A stretch of DNA of 38,967 bases. Origin: a virus. Within the stretch, counting starts at the first letter, position 1, and each line of letters starts with the position of its first letter. This document shows positions 3,021 to 38,714 of the stretch, piece by piece. The position numbers were made by a program, and so were the translations under genes. Location: positions 1 to 38,967 of the IMG/VR virus record IMGVR_UViG_3300045012_000256; one strand, 5' to 3'. A model generated the notes under the pieces. The model did not search any database. It worked only from the letters and a program-made list of their open reading frames with translations, and was not told the DNA's origin.

Positions 3021-5276
3021 ATGGGCGGTGGCGTAGGTACTTTGGGTCTACCCCGTGGTCTCCCCAGCGATGAAATAGTTTCGCTCACTCCGCAAATGGA
3101 ATCGGGAGAACCGGGGATCACCGGCCAAGTCGTCCCCGATGCCGGACTCCCGCGCAAAGTGAGATGGGCCACTAGAGAGATCGTCAAGGCAGAGCCGCAC
3201 GTCATGGCGTGGCGCGAGCAGGCTCGCGATTGCTATCGCTTCCGCGACGGGCACCAACTTTCATCCGAAGACGCGCAGATTCTTAGGTCTCAGAAACGAC
3301 CCAACACCGCCTTCAACGAGATTCAGAAGTTCCTCAAGTTCGTGTCGGGTATCGAACGCCGCACGCAGCAGGCACTGCTTTACCTTCCGCGCAACATGGA
3401 CGACCAGCAGGCGCAGATTCGCGGTGAGTGGAAGACGAAACTTTACGAGTGGTTCATCGACCAGAGCAAAGCGCAGTACGCCAGAAGCCGCGCCTTCGAG
3501 GACATGATAGTCGGCGGCCTCGGCTTTGTAGACATCGGAGTCTCGAAGGCCATCAACCCTCATGGCACTCCGCGCTATAGCCGGATCGATTCTTCGCAGA
3601 TGCTATGGCCGGAAACCGACGCCGAGAATCTGATCGGATCGAAGTGGCTGGCCCGCGAGAACCACATGGACGTGGTGGAGGCGATCGACAAGTGGCGTGA
3701 TAGCGCTATGTTTCTGCGCGCTGCCGCTGGAGGCGCAGCCAACGAAGATGCATTTCCCGACTTCGGTCGTGGTGCGGGACGCCCCATCCAGTACGTCGTG
3801 CCGTGGATTATGACGGAGCCGCTCAATAAGAACGGCGGCGAGATGTCCGGGAAGCCCGGTAAGGTCGCTATCTGCGAGTTCCAGTTCTACGAAGACGACG
3901 AGGGCTATTACTTTTTCGATCCGCTCGAAAAGAATGATACCTGGCTGAATACATCGGATTATCGCAAGTACAAGACTCGCCTCGCGCGCATGTTCGATGC
4001 CGAGATAACCGATTTCACAATCATGCGGAAGCGGGTCTACAAGCGGATGTTCCTGTTGCAGCGCCGCATCCTGCTCGAAGGGCCGACGGAACTCCCAACC
4101 AATTCCGAGAATCCCAACTACACGTTTCTCGCGATGACAGGGACGTGGGACCCTGACGACAAGTGCTTTTACGGAATTACGCGAGTTCTGATGGACCCAC
4201 AGCGCTACGCGAATGCGTTCTTCCGGCAGGTGCTGGAAGTGATGGGAGCGAGTACAAAGGGAGGCTACTTGGCGGAGTCGGGCGCGATAACACCTGCTCA
4301 GAAACATGACATTGAAGAATCAGGTTCTCGTCCCGGCTCCATCAACATCGTACAGCCCGACGCCATCCGCACCAATCGAATCCTGCCCAAGACCATCCCG
4401 CAGATGCCGCAAGGCTCCCTAGCGGTCCTTCAATTCTGCATCGACGCCATCGAAAAGGTGGCAGGCATCTCGACGCAGATGATGGGTAGTGCCGTTCAGG
4501 GTGCGGTTCCGGGGGTGTCGCTTAGGCGCCAACTCACATCGGGCATGGTGCTGCTCGCCGCCGCATTCGATAGTTTGAGTTTGTTTCGTCAGAGCGAAGG
4601 CTACGTTGTCGCTGACTTTCTGAAGCTCATTGCCGACGACCGGAAGGTGACGATTGGCGGAGCCTTTGATGCGCAGTCGATTCAACTAAAGAAAAGCATC
4701 TTCGAGGAGTACGACGACATCATTCTGGACGAGTCGGATCAGGACCCGAATCTCCGCCAGCTCTATACCGACTCGATCCTCCAGATCGCACCTATGCTGA
4801 TCCGCACTGGCAACTTCTTCCCCGAGCTGCTCGACTACCTGAACCTGCCTGTCCAGATCCGTCAGAAACTCAAGCAGGGCATGGAAGAATCCAAGAAGCA
4901 GCAGATGGACATGATGATGCAAGGCATCGGGCAGCCGGGACGTGGTAAGCCACGCGGCATCGAAGAGATCAAGGCGCAGAACCAACTCACGCAGGCCCGC
5001 GCAGCGGAGCACGGAGCGAAGGCGCTCAAGTTGCAATCAGAAGCGAAGCTCCAGATACCGGCGCAGGCACAGGCGACCATCAAGGGCATCCGCCGCGACG
5101 ACATGAAAGCGATCCTCGATTCGCTGATGGAGCTTCACAAGGCGAAAAAAGAAGAGAATGCGCGCAAGGCTGAGTATCTGCTGAAGGCTTTCGACACGAC
5201 AACGAACATGGTGGGGACGTTCGGCGGACTGGCGAATGACCGCTTAAAGGCGCGGAACGGCGGCTCAAGTGACTAA
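3021..5276 (+). CDS. Portal protein (P22-like)
   Basis: Dodecameric head vertex protein through which DNA enters and leaves. The 751-residue length matches the P22 gp1-type portal family (about 700-750). The N-terminal third has the typical pattern: FRDGHQLSSEDAQILRSQ (about 74-91), KRPNTAFNEIQKFLKFVSGIE (about 92-112) and a run of Q/R-rich helices. The C-terminal ~130 residues are helical, Gln/Lys/Ala-rich (QNQLTQARAAEHGAKALKLQ), as expected for the barrel or tail of podovirus portals. A GAGG ribosome site precedes the ATG at 3021. The stop overlaps the GTG start of the methyltransferase by 8 bases. Confidence 0.88.
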   Translation: MGGGVGTLGLPRGLPSDEIVSLTPQMESGEPGITGQVVPDAGLPRKVRWATREIVKAEPHVMAWREQARDCYRFRDGHQLSSEDAQILRSQKRPNTAFNEIQKFLKFVSGIERRTQQALLYLPRNMDDQQAQIRGEWKTKLYEWFIDQSKAQYARSRAFEDMIVGGLGFVDIGVSKAINPHGTPRYSRIDSSQMLWPETDAENLIGSKWLARENHMDVVEAIDKWRDSAMFLRAAAGGAANEDAFPDFGRGAGRPIQYVVPWIMTEPLNKNGGEMSGKPGKVAICEFQFYEDDEGYYFFDPLEKNDTWLNTSDYRKYKTRLARMFDAEITDFTIMRKRVYKRMFLLQRRILLEGPTELPTNSENPNYTFLAMTGTWDPDDKCFYGITRVLMDPQRYANAFFRQVLEVMGASTKGGYLAESGAITPAQKHDIEESGSRPGSINIVQPDAIRTNRILPKTIPQMPQGSLAVLQFCIDAIEKVAGISTQMMGSAVQGAVPGVSLRRQLTSGMVLLAAAFDSLSLFRQSEGYVVADFLKLIADDRKVTIGGAFDAQSIQLKKSIFEEYDDIILDESDQDPNLRQLYTDSILQIAPMLIRTGNFFPELLDYLNLPVQIRQKLKQGMEESKKQQMDMMMQGIGQPGRGKPRGIEEIKAQNQLTQARAAEHGAKALKLQSEAKLQIPAQAQATIKGIRRDDMKAILDSLMELHKAKKEENARKAEYLLKAFDTTTNMVGTFGGLANDRLKARNGGSSD

Positions 5277-5802
5277 GCCCTATTACGAGCGAGACGGCAT
5301 TACGCTGTACAACCGCGATTGCCGTGAGATGTCGTGGCCGTCTACTTCGGTCGTGTTCACGGGACCACCCTACTTTGAGGACCCCGCCGTAGCGGGGCAG
5401 GTGATGCACGGTTTGTTCGCCGAAGTGATTATCTGTCAGTGGAACGAATATTCGCGGCCGCCGGTAGAAATGCCGCTGATGGCAGCGCACGCGTGGATCA
5501 ACAACGATGCGCAGGGGCTTCGCTACCAGACGTTCTGCCATTACGGCTACGGCCCGCGCATCCGCTCCGAAGTACTGCAATATCCAAACGTCAACGACGG
5601 CACGCACCCGCACCAGATTCCGGTGGCGTTGATTCAACGGCTTTTGCTCAAGACTCCGCCTGAGTTAGTGGTCGTCGATCCGTTCTGCGGGGCAGGAAAT
5701 ACGCTGCTTGCAGCGAAGGCGTTCGGGCGTAAGGCGATAGGCGTGGAAATCAACGAGAAGTGGTGCGAGCTGGCGGCAAAGAGGTTGAGCGGTGAAGGTT
5801 GA
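5269..5802 (+). CDS. DNA methyltransferase, N4/N6 (beta-class order), short form
   Basis: An S-adenosylmethionine-dependent amino-methyltransferase of the N6_N4_Mtase family. The catalytic motif IV appears as TGPPYF (31-36), followed by HPHQIP (113-118) and a C-terminal SAM-binding motif I DPFCGAGNT (137-145) with GVEIN (158-162): motif IV before motif I is the beta-class order. TGPPY departs from the usual D/N/SPPY. At 177 residues the protein is short; I see little room for a target-recognition domain, so specificity may be low or supplied elsewhere. The GTG start at 5269 overlaps the portal stop. It heads a cassette of transferases and a ligase, so it might act on phage DNA as anti-restriction or on another substrate. 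Confidence 0.85.
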   Translation: MTKPYYERDGITLYNRDCREMSWPSTSVVFTGPPYFEDPAVAGQVMHGLFAEVIICQWNEYSRPPVEMPLMAAHAWINNDAQGLRYQTFCHYGYGPRIRSEVLQYPNVNDGTHPHQIPVALIQRLLLKTPPELVVVDPFCGAGNTLLAAKAFGRKAIGVEINEKWCELAAKRLSGEG

Positions 5803-31600: not shown

Positions 31601-32909
31601 CTTTGCGCCGGGAACTCTTAACGCCAGCTGCCCGAGTACATGCGGATTTGCCTCTGGCGGAATCTTGGCCTTCGCGAATGTAACCGGCAACGATGGCGGT
31701 GCCGTCGTTACTCAGAATCAGGTGGGCGGCACGAGCGTGGCGGCAGGGCCGGTTGTGACGCACTCCGCCGGTGATTATCTGGTAGGCGCCTTCGGCTTTG
31801 GTACAGCGAATAGCTCGGATACCCTGTCCTTCACTGGCAGCGGACTGACGCTCGGCAACGCCATTCCATTCAACAACAATGTGAATTGGGGCGGCGGGAT
31901 CGCCTCGGTCCAAGTGGGGCCGCCGAGCACCTACGGCCCCTACGACGCCACCTCCAGCGGTACGCTGGTTGCGGGCGCGAGTATCATGCAGGCGCTGACG
32001 TGTGCGCCGAGTCCGACTGCTACGGCGACGGCTACCGCGACCGCCACTGCGACTGCTACTAGCACGGCAACGGCGACAGCTACCGCGACGGCTACGGCGA
32101 CACCGACAGCAACTGCGACTGCGACGGCAACCAGTACTGCAACAGCAACTGCAACAGCAACGGCGACTGCCACAGCTACAGCCACGCCCACAATCACGCC
32201 GACGGCGACGCCGACACCCGCTTGTGCTCCCGCTGTCTCCGTCTCGGCAGGCTTCGCGCAAGCCGTCCCCAGCGCCACAGCGAGCGTCACCGTCACCTAC
32301 CCTGGTGCCGTCGTGTGGGGCCACTGGCTGGGCCTGAATGCTGGCGTGGCGGGACCGAGCGGAGCGATCAGCTCAGTCAGCGATAACGTCAACGGAGCAT
32401 GGACCAAGGACGCAGCGTGTCCGAATACCAACGGAGACATCGAGAACGAAATCTGGCGGTACACGGGCAGCCTGCCCGCGAGCGCTGGGAGCCTGACGGT
32501 GACGGTGACCTTCGGCACGCCCGACAAGGCCAACATCACATTCGCAGATATCGCAGGGCTGGCGACGAGTGGAGCGCTGGATACGGTGGGAGCGTGTCAT
32601 CAAGGGAGTAGCGAGTTTCCATCGACAGGCGTCATCACTCCGGGAACGGTGGGAGACTTCCTGTGGGGCGGTATCTCTCAAGTAAACAGCTTGCTGGTTA
32701 GTATCAACCCGTCGAATCCAACGTTCTCCACGATGGCGGGCGGAGCGAATCCGCTGGAAGTGCCGCTCTATGTGCTTCAGAATCAATTCTCGACGGCGCA
32801 GGCGACTATCAGCGTGAGTGGAGGATCTAACGACTTGGCGGGACAACTCACGGCCTACAAGGTGTGTCCGGGAAACAGCACCAACGCGATGATTCCTTTG
32901 GCCTACTGA
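28599..32909 (+). CDS. Giant exported multidomain protein with putative glycoside hydrolase-like domain
   Basis: The longest gene (1436 residues). It starts with a hydrophobic N-terminal signal or anchor (LALLVLLFACSFVFTSIFYA). Domain order: a short Thr-Ala segment; beta-sandwich, carbohydrate-binding-like region (about 140-340) with a Cys-rich insert around 230-258; a putative TIM-barrel hydrolase-like region (about 360-760) where WVEQSNEEWNG puts Asn493-Glu494 at an acid/base-like site and NFYETGPG places Glu648 at a nucleophile-like site, as in clan GH-A; repeat 858-911; beta-sandwich module (about 912-1137); repeat 1138-1207; a second module (about 1208-1425). A glycan depolymerase is a reasonable inference, but catalysis is unproven. 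Confidence 0.65.
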   Translation: MRRGLALLVLLFACSFVFTSIFYARPFRQQLSPPNALAATATPTAQVTASAPSEPWGVNKIGVNVGGTAEDDNNIAQNLFYNPGFEPPTDGHLIQVGSGASSSSFSDTKDSGAPTGYWVGALASVRTGAAAGTTFTITGFTSGGSYTFGSCSPSCPTLASGVGVTEVLTSVSIGGNISSSTVGGWGANDANGALTTANSYEGLGSLAINVADGNSHTVHWQVDNQGSVGGVCSNDNVTVCTVANQTTDCGGSNTCVTAPQAGPWHPIIGNFEADFYAQALNTSGRTPTVQIQLIRNGVWTVSHTFTLTNDGAWHQYHFPFTGTDVAANRYDSLRFNYIANIGGAAQSGATIYIDDDYLGTTATQATGFRSEALTMLTAMNVGSLRYMIPDTLGSSQAEFEGQSGCTFGGGPPDQTGTCDMLKGPQGTTGDNQAPGNWYISSTDIYPLASALGAVPWISFPNTFSDADLSAFTNNLCSALTTYNFPSVWVEQSNEEWNGTGGTVHWGSSALESGYGPEAGRNFNKMSTTATANCPSVANRIHYMLGNQVCNSGIIFGELQGASSAGFAIPNTNQYGTDDAPYYTNSSGNIDVATGSNLAQVETYASDFFGTGPEYVQNYVAPSGCIYNNGSIFADLGTIGSNNFLNFYETGPGAIGPGPPPSTEQMYLAENTYPSGAWMSMSWLLGIGLPKVPLQNEFTLGQIETQPINNTSTTVSGLWGVTHDQIGNSLGPTFPHQRPIALGMQVVNGAIQPNYYPMSPPTGVTADAFNSNASATGNWSAALVNMTINVSPLAVNFPVTGTVPASCQALCFTNNLADNNENSNDVNICPCTGFSCSGQSCGITLQPYQVAAMDPMTSATPTATATATATPTATATATATATATLTATATPTLTATATPTISATPTASPTAACGPFAQSTVIAGGSAASIVYSKPAGVVSGDTLFAWVAYDYNTWESVPACSGSCGAGWTLLGSGKGGSVAHANETALYELTAGSSEPSTYTFAPGTLNASCPSTCGFASGGILAFANVTGNDGGAVVTQNQVGGTSVAAGPVVTHSAGDYLVGAFGFGTANSSDTLSFTGSGLTLGNAIPFNNNVNWGGGIASVQVGPPSTYGPYDATSSGTLVAGASIMQALTCAPSPTATATATATATATATSTATATATATATATPTATATATATSTATATATATATATATATPTITPTATPTPACAPAVSVSAGFAQAVPSATASVTVTYPGAVVWGHWLGLNAGVAGPSGAISSVSDNVNGAWTKDAACPNTNGDIENEIWRYTGSLPASAGSLTVTVTFGTPDKANITFADIAGLATSGALDTVGACHQGSSEFPSTGVITPGTVGDFLWGGISQVNSLLVSINPSNPTFSTMAGGANPLEVPLYVLQNQFSTAQATISVSGGSNDLAGQLTAYKVCPGNSTNAMIPLAY
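31170..31331. repeat. Thr-Ala/Pro repeat-coding tract 3
   Basis: Residues 858-911 of the 1436-residue protein, between the hydrolase-like region and its first beta-sandwich-like module. Composed of ACN-GCN and ACN-CCN codons with Leu and Ile interruptions. A linker role fits the boundary position. Confidence 0.8.
32010..32219. repeat. Thr-Ala/Pro repeat-coding tract 4
   Basis: Residues 1138-1207 of the same protein, between two modules. It is the purest of the tracts, with long TATATATA runs, a few STAT units and a Pro-rich end (ITPTATPTPAC). Confidence 0.85.
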
Positions 32910-34909
32910 TGAACAAGCTTAAAGTCATTCTCGCCGTTGGACTTGCGCTGTTTTTCACGCATGCGTTAAGCGCGTCTGCACAGACGGTCATCGACAAGCC
33001 TCAAGTCACCACGCCAAGCGCGTGCGGAGGCACCATCACCAACAACGCCTGCGTCTGCAACGGCGCGGCGGTCGCTGGTGCGTTTTCGTGCAGCGTAACT
33101 TGTCCTTCCAGCGGCGCGATCAGCGTTTGCTCGTGCGCGAGCACGGGAACCCTGACCGACGCCCTCACCGAGACAAGCCAATCGGCGACGGTGAACTCAC
33201 GTCAGCGCGTTCTCTCGCCCAGCAGCCCGACACTCAGTCTGGAGGCGGCAGATATTCTCAGCACCAACACAAGCGCCTATACGGTGAAATCGACGGCAGG
33301 GTCGGGCGTCATCACTCATTCAATGGCGTTGCAGTGCATGTCGGGATTGACGGCGACGCCCTTCGATACCATTGGCGGACAGGTCAATTCGACGGCGAGC
33401 GATACATGGCTAGGCGCCCCCATTTCCAGCTTTCCCTTGACCACCATCGCGTGCGCGGCGGGAACCTGTACCGGCACGACGCTGGTGACTGAAGGCTTTA
33501 CCGGCACTCCATCGGCGGTCATCGCGAACACGTCGAACAGCTCGTGCAACGGTACTTTCACGATCACGCCGGTGACGGGGACGACCTTCACATTTCCGGC
33601 TGGCAGTTGCAGTTCGGCGAGTGGCGGTTCGGTTTATCTGTCGCTCGCTTCTCTTGCGGACATCACGGAGCTTGGCATCGGTTGTAAGTGCGCAGGCGGC
33701 GTCCAGACGGCGATTAGCTCAACTTCGATGCCCGCATACCTCCTGCAAGGGACCAACACTGCCGTTCCCGCAAATGCTTCGAATAGCGTGGTGACGAGCA
33801 ACACGATAGCGAGTAGCGGCGCATCGCTGGCGGATTCCAACGTGGTGGTAACGGGTACCGCGCGGACGAATCTCTCAACCTTCGCGACCTATATCAGCAG
33901 CGTGCAGACGGCTTGGGTGGCGCATCCGGCAGATTCGCAAGGAACTGTGCTCACGGGGACTTCGGCGACTGTCGCATTGCCGACGAGCGTTGCGACTGGC
34001 GACTGCGTGACGATGCAGGGTGGTCCCGGCAACTCCGCTAACACCTTGTCAATTAGTAACAGCAACGGTAATACCTACACACCCGCTCCGAGCAGTCCCT
34101 ACACATGGAATATCGGCTTGGGCGGATATGCTTGGTACGTGTGGTACACACAGCAGCAATCGGGTGCGGGAAATCCGACCTTGGCTATTGCCGGAGGTAA
34201 CTGCACTAATTGCGGGGGCGTCATCACGCGCCATTTCACGCCCCCCAGCGGCGTTGGATGCTTCGTGAAGAGCGCGACATTTCAGGCGAACGCCTCTAGC
34301 TTGATAGGGCAAGCGCCCGCGTTGGCTGGAACGGTGGGCGATCTGTTGGCGTGGTCATTTATCGGAACGTCATCGTGGAATACCGCCTTCACGTTGCTCA
34401 ATCCCGAATTGGGAACGCCAGACCTCGCCTACGTGGGAACAGGTTCGACCGTCCTTCAGGACGGACACTATTACTACACCGCCACGAACACGGCGCCCGC
34501 ATATAATGTAACCAATGGTGGCACAGCGTCGGCCAACGGAGGCGTATCTCTTGATTTCCAAGGCTCGCCCACCCCGACAGCGACTGCGACTCCGACAGCT
34601 ACTGCAACAGCGACAGCGACTGCCACCGCAACGAACACCATAACGCCGACCCCAACGGCCACAGCCACGGCTACCGCCACTGCAACCGCCACTGCGACCC
34701 CAACCGTCACGCCTACGGCGACCGCGACGGCTACTGCGACCGCTACGCCTACAATCACGGCCACCCCGACCATCACCGCCACGCCTACGATAAGCGCCAC
34801 TCCTACAGTCAGCGCCACCCCCACCGGCGGCGCGACTCCGGTGTGCAGCAACGTGACGATGGGGAAGCGTATCGGGGGGCTTCATGTGTCGTGCAACGGG
34901 GGCTTTTGA
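32909..34909 (+). CDS. Exported Cys-rich repeat protein with C-terminal Thr-Ala tract
   Basis: The ATG at 32909 overlaps the previous stop (TGATG); an in-frame ATG at 32864 lies inside the preceding gene. The 666-residue product has a signal peptide (MNKLKVILAVGLALFFTHALSASA, then QT), a Cys-rich start (CVCNG, CSVTCPSSGAISVCSCAS), a long Ser/Thr body with a NGTFTITPVTGTTFTFPAG segment like that in the giant LamG-like protein, and a beta-sandwich-like module (about 350-550). It ends with a Thr-Ala/Pro tract (553-644) and a short Cys-containing tail. Here the repeat is terminal, so the tail may be an attachment end. Confidence 0.65.
   Translation: MNKLKVILAVGLALFFTHALSASAQTVIDKPQVTTPSACGGTITNNACVCNGAAVAGAFSCSVTCPSSGAISVCSCASTGTLTDALTETSQSATVNSRQRVLSPSSPTLSLEAADILSTNTSAYTVKSTAGSGVITHSMALQCMSGLTATPFDTIGGQVNSTASDTWLGAPISSFPLTTIACAAGTCTGTTLVTEGFTGTPSAVIANTSNSSCNGTFTITPVTGTTFTFPAGSCSSASGGSVYLSLASLADITELGIGCKCAGGVQTAISSTSMPAYLLQGTNTAVPANASNSVVTSNTIASSGASLADSNVVVTGTARTNLSTFATYISSVQTAWVAHPADSQGTVLTGTSATVALPTSVATGDCVTMQGGPGNSANTLSISNSNGNTYTPAPSSPYTWNIGLGGYAWYVWYTQQQSGAGNPTLAIAGGNCTNCGGVITRHFTPPSGVGCFVKSATFQANASSLIGQAPALAGTVGDLLAWSFIGTSSWNTAFTLLNPELGTPDLAYVGTGSTVLQDGHYYYTATNTAPAYNVTNGGTASANGGVSLDFQGSPTPTATATPTATATATATATATNTITPTPTATATATATATATATPTVTPTATATATATATPTITATPTITATPTISATPTVSATPTGGATPVCSNVTMGKRIGGLHVSCNGGF
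34565..34840. repeat. Thr-Ala/Pro repeat-coding tract 5
   Basis: The longest tract, residues 553-644 of the Cys-rich exported protein, near its C-terminus. It moves from TATATAT to TITATPTISATPTVSATP units, showing stepwise divergence along the tract. Only about 22 residues follow. Confidence 0.85.
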
Positions 34910-35668: not shown

Positions 35669-35833
35669 ATGGACTTAGTTCTACTCGTGGTAGTGTTGAT
35701 TCTGCTGTTCGGTGGCGGCGGATACTGGGGCGGCGCGTTCGGCCCGTATAATTACGGCTCCTACGGCTACGGCGGCTTCCTGCCGATCCTTCTCGTCGTC
35801 GTGCTCGTGTGGCTCTTGCTGGGGCATCGGTAA
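35669..35833 (+). CDS. Small two-segment membrane protein, DUF3309-like
   Basis: TAGGAGG precedes the ATG at 35669. The 54 residues have an N-terminal helix (LVLLVVVLILLFGGGGYWGG), a Tyr/Gly loop (PYNYGSYGYGGF) and a second helix (LPILLVVVLVWLLLGHR). The helix-Gly/Trp/Tyr loop-helix pattern resembles the short DUF3309 membrane proteins. Ends in TAATG shared with the holin candidate. Function not established. Confidence 0.6.
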   Translation: MDLVLLVVVLILLFGGGGYWGGAFGPYNYGSYGYGGFLPILLVVVLVWLLLGHR

Positions 35834-36150
35834 TGCCGGACGATACGCCAGTCGTAAAAACGACCGTCATCGACGAGAAGACCGGCGCTGCCGCGACGCA
35901 ACAGCCGCCACCGCCCCAAATCATCGCGGACGATAACGCGCGGAAGTACCTCGCCTCTGGGGTCATACTTCAGTTTCTGCTCGTGGTCGGGTATATCATC
36001 TACTCGAACAAGGGAGTGGCGACGGCGAGCAATACCGAACTGATGATCGTCGGTGCCGAGGTGACCTTTATGACCACCGTGCTGAACTATTATTTTGGTT
36101 CGAGCTCGGGCTCGACCGCAAAGAGTGCCGCAGCAGGAGACAAACGATGA
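35833..36150 (+). CDS. Holin candidate
   Basis: The ATG at 35833 (TAATG overlap) gives 105 residues. A polar N-terminus (PDDTPVVKTTVIDEKTG) precedes two membrane segments: YLASGVILQFLLVVGYIIYS (about 44-63) and ELMIVGAEVTFMTTVLNYYFG (about 73-93), then GSSSGSTAKS and a basic end. NYYFGSSSGS just after the last helix is typical of two-helix phage holins. It would form inner-membrane lesions at lysis time. Overlaps the next gene by 4 bases. Confidence 0.65.
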   Translation: MPDDTPVVKTTVIDEKTGAAATQQPPPPQIIADDNARKYLASGVILQFLLVVGYIIYSNKGVATASNTELMIVGAEVTFMTTVLNYYFGSSSGSTAKSAAAGDKR

Positions 36151-36851
36151 TCAACATCGCAGTAATCAACGAATCGACCGTCTACACCGACCAGCAAGCG
36201 CAGCAGACGATGGCCGCGCTCCAGACGCAGTGGAATCGCGACATGGCTCCTGTGTGGGGCATCGAGAACGCGACGTTCGTGTGGACGCCGAAGGGCACGA
36301 CGCCGCCTGCGACCTCGTGGTGGCTGGTCTTTCTCGACGACAGCGATCAGGCTGGCGCGCTCGCCTATCACGACGTGACTAATACTGGCCTGCCAATCAG
36401 CAAGGTCTTCGTGAAGACGATCCAGTCCGACAACTCCAGCGTGAGCGTCGGCGCGTCGCACGAGTGCTGCGAGATGGCGGTGGACCCGACGATCAACCTT
36501 TCGGCGCAAGATCCGAACGGCTTGTTCTGGGCCTACGAGATTTGCGATCCCGTAGAGGACGACCAGTACGGCTATGACATCGGCGGCGTGCTCGTCAGCG
36601 ACTTCGTGACGCCAGCGTGGTTCGGATTTCAGAGCAGCGGCGCGCCGTTCGACTTCCAGAAGAAAGCGGGCGCTGCGTTTGCGATTCTGTCGGGCGGATA
36701 CGCGCAGAGCAACAATGGGTCAGGGTGGACGCAGACGACCGGACAGAAGGCGCGAGCATCGGCGATGGTGATGGCACCGCCGAAGGGCAGCCGTCGCGAG
36801 CGGCGGGTGCGCGGGAACGGCAACTTTCAGCCGTCGGCGCACAAGTTCTAA
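36147..36851 (+). CDS. HExxE-motif protein, putative metallopeptidase-like
   Basis: A 234-residue protein with SHECCEMAVDP (His105, Glu106, Glu109), followed by YEICDPVEDDQYGYDIGG and a SDFVTPAWF...GGY C-terminal block. I recall a bacterial and phage family with SHExxExxxDP and YEI.DPVE. The order resembles a shortened zinc-peptidase site (HExxE with a downstream acidic residue), but HExxH is absent. The basic tail (PKGSRRERRVRGNG) lies after the domain. It overlaps the holin candidate (ATGA). Cell-wall or protein cleavage is a possibility, not shown. Confidence 0.5.
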   Translation: MINIAVINESTVYTDQQAQQTMAALQTQWNRDMAPVWGIENATFVWTPKGTTPPATSWWLVFLDDSDQAGALAYHDVTNTGLPISKVFVKTIQSDNSSVSVGASHECCEMAVDPTINLSAQDPNGLFWAYEICDPVEDDQYGYDIGGVLVSDFVTPAWFGFQSSGAPFDFQKKAGAAFAILSGGYAQSNNGSGWTQTTGQKARASAMVMAPPKGSRRERRVRGNGNFQPSAHKF

Positions 36852-37574: not shown

Positions 37575-37931
37575 ATGCGGAAAAGTATTAGCCTCGGACT
37601 TATCGTCGGCTCACTCGCGTTCTACCTCGCGGGATGCGCCAAAATCTCTCTCACCACTCAGTGCCCCGCGAATAGCGCAGGCGTCTCGTTCGCGCTCGCT
37701 GGATCGACTGTGGGCAATCAGGCTATCGCAATGCTTGGGTCCGCGCTTGGTGGCGCTGCGTTGATGGGTGCCAGGCAGAACGCGGCGGCTGACGCGACGT
37801 TGCCGACCAACACGATGTCGTACGAGTATTTGCCTATCTTCGGCGCGGACTCCGGATCGCTGACGTGCATCGAACCTATCGCGCCGCCGACGGTGGTGAC
37901 TGCGGGACCGCCTGCCGCGATTCTGCATTGA
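37575..37931 (+). CDS. Lipoprotein (1)
   Basis: A 118-residue protein: MRKSISLGLIVGSLAFYLAGC has a signal ending in LAGC, a clear lipobox, so the mature protein would be acylated at Cys21. The mature part is Ala/Gly/Ser-rich with two more Cys (TQCPANSAG, LTCIEPI) and a long Ala/Gly stretch. No ribosome site. Its TTGA end is shared with a second lipoprotein. May be an outer-membrane spanin-type or surface-exclusion protein. Confidence 0.7.
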   Translation: MRKSISLGLIVGSLAFYLAGCAKISLTTQCPANSAGVSFALAGSTVGNQAIAMLGSALGGAALMGARQNAAADATLPTNTMSYEYLPIFGADSGSLTCIEPIAPPTVVTAGPPAAILH

Positions 37932-38303: not shown

Positions 38304-38714
38304 GTGAATCCCGACTCGGCCTATTGGTCGAACGTCATCCTCCTCGCTCTCTGCGTCTGGCGCGAGGCACGCGGCGAAATATACACGGCGAAGCTGGCAG
38401 TAGCCTATACCGTAGTCACGAGAGCGGCGCACGGTGGCTGGTGGGGCGACTCGATCATGGCGGTGCTCCGATGCCCCGCCCAGTACACGTCGATGACGCA
38501 TGAGGGCGATCCGAACCTGGTGGTGCTTCCCGGCCCTGCCGATCCGTTCTGGGACGACTCGGTACAGGCGGCAGTGGCGGCACTCAGCAAGAGCGTGCCG
38601 AATCCCGCGCCGATGGCGGATTCGTACTTCAGTGGGGATGTGGTGCCGTATTGGGCGGCGTCGGCGACGTTGATTGCTGACGTGGGCGACTTTAAGTTCT
38701 ATCGGACGGTGTAA
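38304..38714 (+). CDS. SleB-type cell wall hydrolase (endolysin candidate)
   Basis: A 136-residue protein of the Hydrolase_2 / SleB family, peptidoglycan lytic enzymes. The signature CVWREARGE (Glu21 and Glu25), KLAVAYTVVTRA and the later CPAQYTSM match E-A-R-G-E, AVAxVVxNR and the QF/S segment of the family. GTG start at 38304. No signal peptide, so it would reach the wall through a holin. It is the best endolysin candidate. Its stop is one base from the converging Dam gene stop. Confidence 0.85.
   Translation: MNPDSAYWSNVILLALCVWREARGEIYTAKLAVAYTVVTRAAHGGWWGDSIMAVLRCPAQYTSMTHEGDPNLVVLPGPADPFWDDSVQAAVAALSKSVPNPAPMADSYFSGDVVPYWAASATLIADVGDFKFYRTV

Follow-up and report, generated by a model that had tools for sequence, protein, structure and literature searches.

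The gene at positions 36,147–36,851 belongs, judging from its sequence relatives, to a large unnamed family of many phages and bacteria, and structure prediction supports a metzincin-like fold for its 234-aa product with an invariant HExxE motif on the helix that corresponds, by order of elements, to the one bearing the metzincin active site. On balance, we lean towards this protein being an accessory metal-dependent peptidase of metzincin-like fold and variant site, which would act on the host envelope once the membrane opens. The family, the conservation and the predicted fold are the supported parts of this explanation, while the metal, the catalysis, the peptide substrate, the envelope site and the timing are inferred.

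The window, by which we mean the whole stretch of DNA analysed, is an IMG/VR virus record of 38,967 bases whose left side carries genes for the terminase, the portal and the major head protein (Table 1). The start codon of the HExxE gene has an AGGAG 7 nt on its 5′ side and overlaps the stop codon of the preceding gene. The product of that preceding gene has one hydrophobic segment by hydropathy and matches PHROG families with no assigned function, so that holin is a candidate label taken from the predicted segment only. On the 3′ side of the HExxE gene follow, in order and by reading, genes for a coiled-coil protein, an Ig-like protein (Big_9, below cut-off), a lipoprotein-like protein and a SleB-type hydrolase. 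The lipoprotein-like product is a possible partner of the HExxE protein, by analogy only, and the SleB-type hydrolase, which the original prediction had already named and which we find as Pfam Hydrolase_2, is probably the phage endolysin. Elsewhere in the window, a 681-aa protein (32,864–34,909) has a long run of Thr/Ala/Pro repeats towards its C-terminus, and a similar tract is seen in a relative's locus (L001, 55–1833).

Table 1. Features of the window around the HExxE gene, with codon positions of the residues discussed
Feature	Position	Strand	Basis or remark
234-aa protein of the unnamed HExxE, metzincin-like family	36147..36851	+	ATG start
ATGA stop–start overlap of the HExxE ORF with the preceding 113-aa ORF	36147..36150	+	
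Small membrane protein (holin candidate)	35833..36150	+	ATG; alternative GTG start at 35809 (113 aa, 35809–36150)
Conserved loop D64 to H75	36336..36371	+	intein site in relative L156
H75 codon	36369..36371	+	in strand 73–77 of the model
H105-E106-x-x-E109-x3-D113 codons, predicted metal site and general base	36459..36485	+	conservation, model
E131-x-x-D134-x-x-E137 codons, further candidate metal ligands or second shell	36537..36557	+	conservation
Basic C-terminal tail with GSRRERR motif, residues 214–234	36786..36848	+	lower model confidence
Short protein with lipoprotein-like start (LAGC)	37575..37931	+	sequence; lipoprotein-like neighbours in relatives
SleB-type cell wall hydrolase (Hydrolase_2)	38304..38714	+	Pfam 35.5 bits against a cut-off of 27

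An HExxE motif and a YEICDPVE stretch had been proposed as a possible zincin-like site, and both were found in the 234-aa protein, as H105-E106-C-C-E109-M-A-V-D113-P114 and Y130-E131-I-C-D134-P-V-E137, respectively. In 20,000 shuffles of the protein, HE..E arose 45 times, HE..E...D twice and HE..E...DP never. The looser pattern HE..[HE] occurs in five of the 214 window ORFs of at least 60 aa over both strands, with the HExxE gene as the sole case on the plus strand and the remaining four on the minus strand. Conservation among relatives, as read from the aligned sequences, is stronger evidence for the motif than these shuffles. Because loci had been fetched with motif patterns, it was counted separately for the viral and genome collections, and all loci also matched the window protein by tblastn. 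The viral set (the best 80 of 108 IMG/VR stretches) was fetched with patterns from other parts of the protein, VSDF or ExCD, and keeps H75, H105, E106, E109 and D113 in 80 of 80 relatives. For the genome set (the best 80 of 193 GTDB stretches) the HExxE motif itself was the bait, and E131 and D134 are kept in all 79 ungapped rows, H75 in all but one of the 79. E137 is present in 80/80 viral rows, though it lies within one of the two bait patterns, and in 67 of the 78 ungapped genome rows. The same picture is given by alignment A2, whose 135 rows are the window protein and 134 of 168 relatives, leaving out eight plasmid rows, short or open fragments, rows at least 85% identical to one kept, and L056; the row of L156 starts within its intein. 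H105, E106, E109, D113, E131 and D134 are invariant in A2 and H75 and E137 nearly so, and across these 135 sequences the invariant HExxE-x3-D and ExxD reach down to 27% identity with the window protein.

Among members whose C-terminal tail measures 21–99 residues, a net charge of at least +4 over the last 30 residues is seen in 67% of the viral ones (78 members) and 79% of the genome ones (71 members). R220 is present in 74 of the 80 viral rows, and GSRRERR-like motifs recur in the tails of the family, with the tail varying outside the closer relatives. One member (L124, 4941–6056) ends in a series of repeats, each about 17 residues long and nearly the same in sequence. At the other end, a hydrophobic N-terminus was seen in 0/169 members with the starts chosen; the farthest upstream start would give a hydrophobic stretch in two of them (L034 and L064).

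Searching IMG/VR with the window protein alone returned two close relatives (68% and 59% identity), and a 10-row profile brought the number of confirmed stretches to 108. Another 193 stretches were confirmed in GTDB contigs, eight of 72,556 plasmid records carry the family, and in one bacterial class 14 of 200 genomes have a member, in a sample drawn around, and counting, a known member genome. By tblastn at E ≤ 0.01 the window protein matched none of 50,697 cultured-phage records. PHROGs and NCBIfam were likewise empty for the window protein, and neither it nor the 135-row profile matched a PDB sequence. When the 135 members were searched singly, a convincing covering family was absent from Pfam, PHROGs, NCBIfam and PADLOC. 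At E ≤ 0.1, 14 Pfam families and 15 PHROG families, the latter all weak, matched any member; the PHROG family with the most matches, phrog_17776 (function not assigned, best E 0.002), was found in six members, one single PHROG match reached 1.3e-5, no NCBIfam family was matched by more than three members and no PADLOC family by more than one. The sole Pfam match of the window protein, VID27_PH (E 0.00085, below its cut-off), was judged to be due to chance and was found in 1/135 members. In the titles and abstract openings of open-access papers, no name for the phage HExxE family was found among the matches listed.

The one strong signal in these searches is an intein in L156 (E 2.7e-8 in Pfam, 1.2e-12 in NCBIfam). 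The gene there (3531–5579) is a single open frame of 683 codons, with the long intein between the positions of A69 and G70 and an HNH-like stretch, by reading, inside it, and from its sequence it reads as a genuine, phage-borne intein in an unnamed family. Inteins favour conserved functional sites of enzymes; thus its position in the loop before H75 speaks mildly, and independently, for an active site there. A FastTree tree was built from 165 of the 169 rows, and on it the viral label switches at least 17 times, with eight of the switches forced by well-supported branches, a count blurred by prophages, mis-binned contigs and long branches; from these label changes, repeated transfer of the gene between phages and bacteria is probable. 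The same Streptomyces replicon is recorded both as a plasmid (L154, PLSDB) and as a virus (L005, IMG/VR); it has integrase genes close to its HExxE gene and is possibly a phage-plasmid. Three members with 44–45% identity to the window protein (L027, L034 and L039) come from contigs labelled as archaeal MAGs, which may be wrongly binned DNA of bacteria or phages. In L076 (4001–7015) the family domain begins a 1004-aa protein whose later parts are, by reading, lipase-like and glycosidase-like.

The AlphaFold2 model of the 234-aa protein is confident (mean pLDDT 92.8, pTM 0.86), except at the C-terminus, where blocks fall to pLDDT 62–74. Its elements run E2–8, H15–37, E42–47, E58–63, E73–77, E83–88 and H99–112, that is, a strand, a long helix, four strands and the HExxE helix, an order which we take to be that of the metzincin N-terminal subdomain. 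Helix 99–112 holds the HExxE and D113 stands just past it, and strand 73–77 with H75, the fourth strand, would by order correspond to the edge strand of metzincins. Against the PDB, the top Foldseek match is ADAM33 at E 0.012, so that none reaches E ≤ 0.001, and 43 of the best 50 rows are metzincin-type chains by their titles, with TM-scores of the PDB matches of about 0.3–0.4. In VIA-align, the best 50 rows comprise 46 metzincins, three PIWI/Argonaute structures and 1oz9; the best Z-scores, 8.2 for MMP-11 and 8.1 for archaemetzincin, are at a level that may mean only a common arrangement. The first match in BFVD is an uncharacterised Caudovirales protein (E 2.5e-10, 20% identity), and ranks 2–6 include four named metalloproteases at E 0.0075 and above. 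Single PDB scores are weak; the support for a metzincin-like fold comes from the clustering of the matches in a single fold class and from the position of the motif in the corresponding helix. The zincin-like reading of the original prediction is thus supported in a variant form, by a confident model, mostly metzincin matches and an invariant HExxE in a helix that by order matches the active-site helix.

The likeness to metzincins such as archaemetzincin (2x7m), MMPs, snapalysin and ADAMs lies in the predicted order of elements, the top structural matches and the HExx start of the motif. The site itself differs from the metzincin HExxHxxGxxH/D, since the phage family has HExxE-x3-D, with Glu for the second His and an Asp at +8 instead of H/D at +10, and a conserved Met-turn downstream of the motif is missing, as no column of A2 that is fully or almost fully conserved holds a Met. 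As sequence relatives the classical metzincins found no support, profile comparison giving E 0.63 for snapalysin (nine sequences) and 0.15 for archaemetzincin (14 sequences). A possible precedent for HExxE, by motif description alone, is the CLCA peptidases, whose catalytic motif is given as HEXXE in the available part of one paper (PMC6851300) and as HExxH in that of a family survey (PMC3650047). A functional parallel is offered by Listeria Mtz/Tim, described in the available part of its report as a phage-derived metzincin/lipoprotein pair that sensitises cells to lysins and raises phage-mediated lysis; Mtz carries a signal peptide of the Sec type, the HExxHxxGxxH/D motif and a Met-turn (PMC8235301). 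In the phage HExxE family a lipoprotein-like neighbour recurs at 12 loci. The parallel is functional only, given the signal peptide and classical motif of Mtz.

The best sequence relative found for the phage HExxE family is PF04674 (Phi_1/EXORDIUM), in which HExxE-x3-DP is arranged and spaced as in the family, with a His before it (in C-G-W-H or similar) and an ExxD after it. The set assembled for this comparison contains 19 bacterial loci (L170–L188) and phage-borne members (among L189–L200). HExxE-x3-D with a downstream ExxD occurs in 24 of 24 distinct PF04674 sequences (19 bacterial, five phage loci) and the upstream aromatic-His in 20 of 24, a tally biased by a script that demanded at least one flanking feature; the motif is absent from the truncated phage-borne copies L194 and L197. 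Strict hhalign of A2 against 14 PF04674 sequences gave E 2e-4 and a probability of 46% over 24 columns, covering the motif region only, an E-value that does not come from a blind search, PF04674 having been picked for its similar motif. The comparison was for this reason controlled by shuffling, reversing and masking the alignment and by metzincin profiles. Against the A2–PF04674 score of 36.8, 100 column shuffles reached at most 25.0, the reversed profile 16.6, the motif-masked one 23.9, and the metzincin control profiles 11.4 (snapalysin) and 16.3 (archaemetzincin). The E-value was 0.0087 with the correlation score off and 0.018 with the motif masked. With relaxed settings, seven of the seven key residues of the family fall on invariant columns of the PF04674 alignment (A3), and a setting intended as global gave E 0.77 and no useful alignment.

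The similarity between PF04674 and the phage family is therefore mainly the motif, and the Pfam model of PF04674 matches none of the 135 members at E ≤ 0.1. The two also differ at the N-terminus, since the few PF04674 proteins whose N-termini were read start with a signal-like segment, which the members of the HExxE family lack. A model of one phage-borne PF04674 protein is weak (pLDDT 51.9, seven sequences); in VIA-align 49 of its best 50 rows are metzincins by reading, led by an archaemetzincin at Z 8.8, and it has no BFVD match at E ≤ 0.001. Taken together, the profiles suggest that PF04674 and the phage HExxE family are probably distant kin, with homology not established. EXO is described, in the available part of its report, as an extracellular protein mediating cell expansion, in a family placed in PF04674 (PMC2661892). 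The conserved HExxE-x3-DP of the bacterial and phage-borne Phi_1/EXORDIUM proteins (L170–L200), together with the metzincin matches of the weak model, raises the possibility that EXORDIUM is itself metzincin-like, and among the matches listed for open-access titles and abstract openings we found none that tied EXORDIUM to metalloproteases by structure.

Around the relatives, the commonest recurrent neighbour is the lipoprotein-like family, found at 12 loci (six viral, two of them identical, and six genomic) as the first or second gene upstream in nine of them. The neighbours were delimited with a crude gene caller that mis-called genes 3′ of the window ORF, and the scan of neighbours for known families took in 111 of 267 genes from 37 loci and the best 25 of 97 and the best 25 of 32 families. 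Lipobox-like genes stand at 10 of 142 places adjacent to viral members against 8 of 377 at ±3 to 5 (p 0.012, uncorrected), and at 5 of 157 against 6 of 309 for genome members (p 0.52). All six of the genomic loci have a gatA-like gene further upstream, five of the six a gatC-like gene and three a cysS-like gene next downstream, by reading. These are Acidobacteria-type contigs (L051, L053, L054, L058, L061 and L062) in which the lipoprotein-like and HExxE genes stand together downstream of the gatA-like genes, and the arrangement appears, from gene order, to be a recurrent non-phage context. Since members also occur in bacterial contigs beside such housekeeping-like genes, the family is not specific to lysis. 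Peptidoglycan hydrolases occur next to or near viral members; as the family scan covered 111 of the 267 neighbour genes and had no control set, we claim no enrichment of endolysins.

The original prediction had also coupled the HExxE gene to the holin candidate and named a second lytic enzyme or a protease acting on the host envelope as options; read strictly, the first would be a dedicated enzyme at the core of the lysis cassette. The ATGA overlap on which this relied is indeed present in the window, the SleB hydrolase lies 1.5 kb downstream, some relatives have endolysin-like neighbours (in a comparison run without a control), and, if upstream starts are taken, overlaps with an upstream gene recur in L002, whose upstream 118-aa protein has two hydrophobic segments, and in L001, whose upstream 68-aa protein has none. 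Counting the window, a 4-nt overlap at the start chosen was found at 20 of 81 loci, a number biased upward because the ORF nearest to such an overlap was picked at each locus. Elsewhere, however, this linkage is mostly lost or absent. Among 59 loci with homologues of the holin candidate (flanks up to 3 kb), one has a family gene (L202, on the same contig as L092), and the two genes are not adjacent there. A close phage (L201) keeps a holin candidate 80% identical to that of the window and, on its 5′ side, a lysozyme-like gene by reading, but has an unrelated 67-aa ORF at the ATGA position and no HExxE gene. Furthermore, the upstream genes differ widely among viral members, and bacterial copies exist away from phage and lysis genes, some beside the gatA- or cysS-like genes. 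We therefore regard a holin-coupled core enzyme as rather improbable. The same region of L201 also encodes a 262-aa protein (4733–5521) with a GDC...H pattern, which might be cysteine-peptidase-like.

That the protein binds metal and has no catalytic function, as a decoy, an inhibitor or a structural metal site, would suit an HExxE that lacks the second zinc histidine, and zincins with substituted, probably inactive motifs are described as common in the available part of the family survey (PMC3650047). Degraded sites normally drift, however, and here all 80 viral members keep both the general-base Glu and the putative ligands, which makes a non-catalytic role unlikely in our view. The basic GSRRERR tail could mean another kind of target, and together with the 1oz9 match in VIA-align (Z 7.3) it would fit a zincin-like nuclease acting on nucleic acid, 1oz9 being a YbeY protein. 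That match is one of 50 rows and is tied with many proteases, no sequence relation was found, and the tail is not constant across the family, so that we consider a YbeY-like nuclease very improbable. An equally small chance is given to a virion protein or a maturation protease packaged in the particle, for which the gene's place on the late side of the genome and the absence of a visible signal peptide could be cited. Against it, bacterial copies adjoin non-phage genes, and none of the 15 PHROG families weakly matched by the 135 members is described as structural. Virion folds, which the original prediction had set against its own reading, were not seen among the structural matches of the model.

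In the accessory peptidase explanation, H105 and E109 on the active-site helix would hold a metal ion, with D113, E131/D134 or H75 completing the shell and E106 acting as the general base. As no signal peptide is recognisable, synthesis is probably cytoplasmic, and the protein would gain access to the envelope only after the phage lysis proteins have opened the membrane. Once released, it may trim host envelope proteins or lipoproteins and aid the SleB-type hydrolase, in a role that would be accessory to lysis and not essential. A protease acting on the host envelope is plausible on this evidence. On a Rhizobium plasmid (L006, 4908–7367) a phospholipase D-like protein begins with the family domain, a fusion that fits a hydrolase role.

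As the HExxE family is widespread yet uncovered by the four libraries searched, it is a sizeable unannotated enzyme candidate, and its site is open to single substitutions. Should it prove to be a protease that acts on the envelope, phage lysis would gain an uncommon tool. A link to PF04674, if true, would provide a biochemical hypothesis for EXORDIUM proteins. More tentatively, and with considerable doubt, the family and PF04674 may together form an undescribed metzincin-like branch defined by HExxE-x3-DP, ExxD and the upstream His, with the cytoplasmic form released by phages and the secreted form leading to plant EXORDIUM. Phages would then repeatedly acquire the cytoplasmic version and let it out at lysis, where it would cut lipoproteins of the envelope, in many cases together with a lipoprotein partner, and the biochemical function of EXORDIUM would be, or would derive from, metal-dependent proteolysis.
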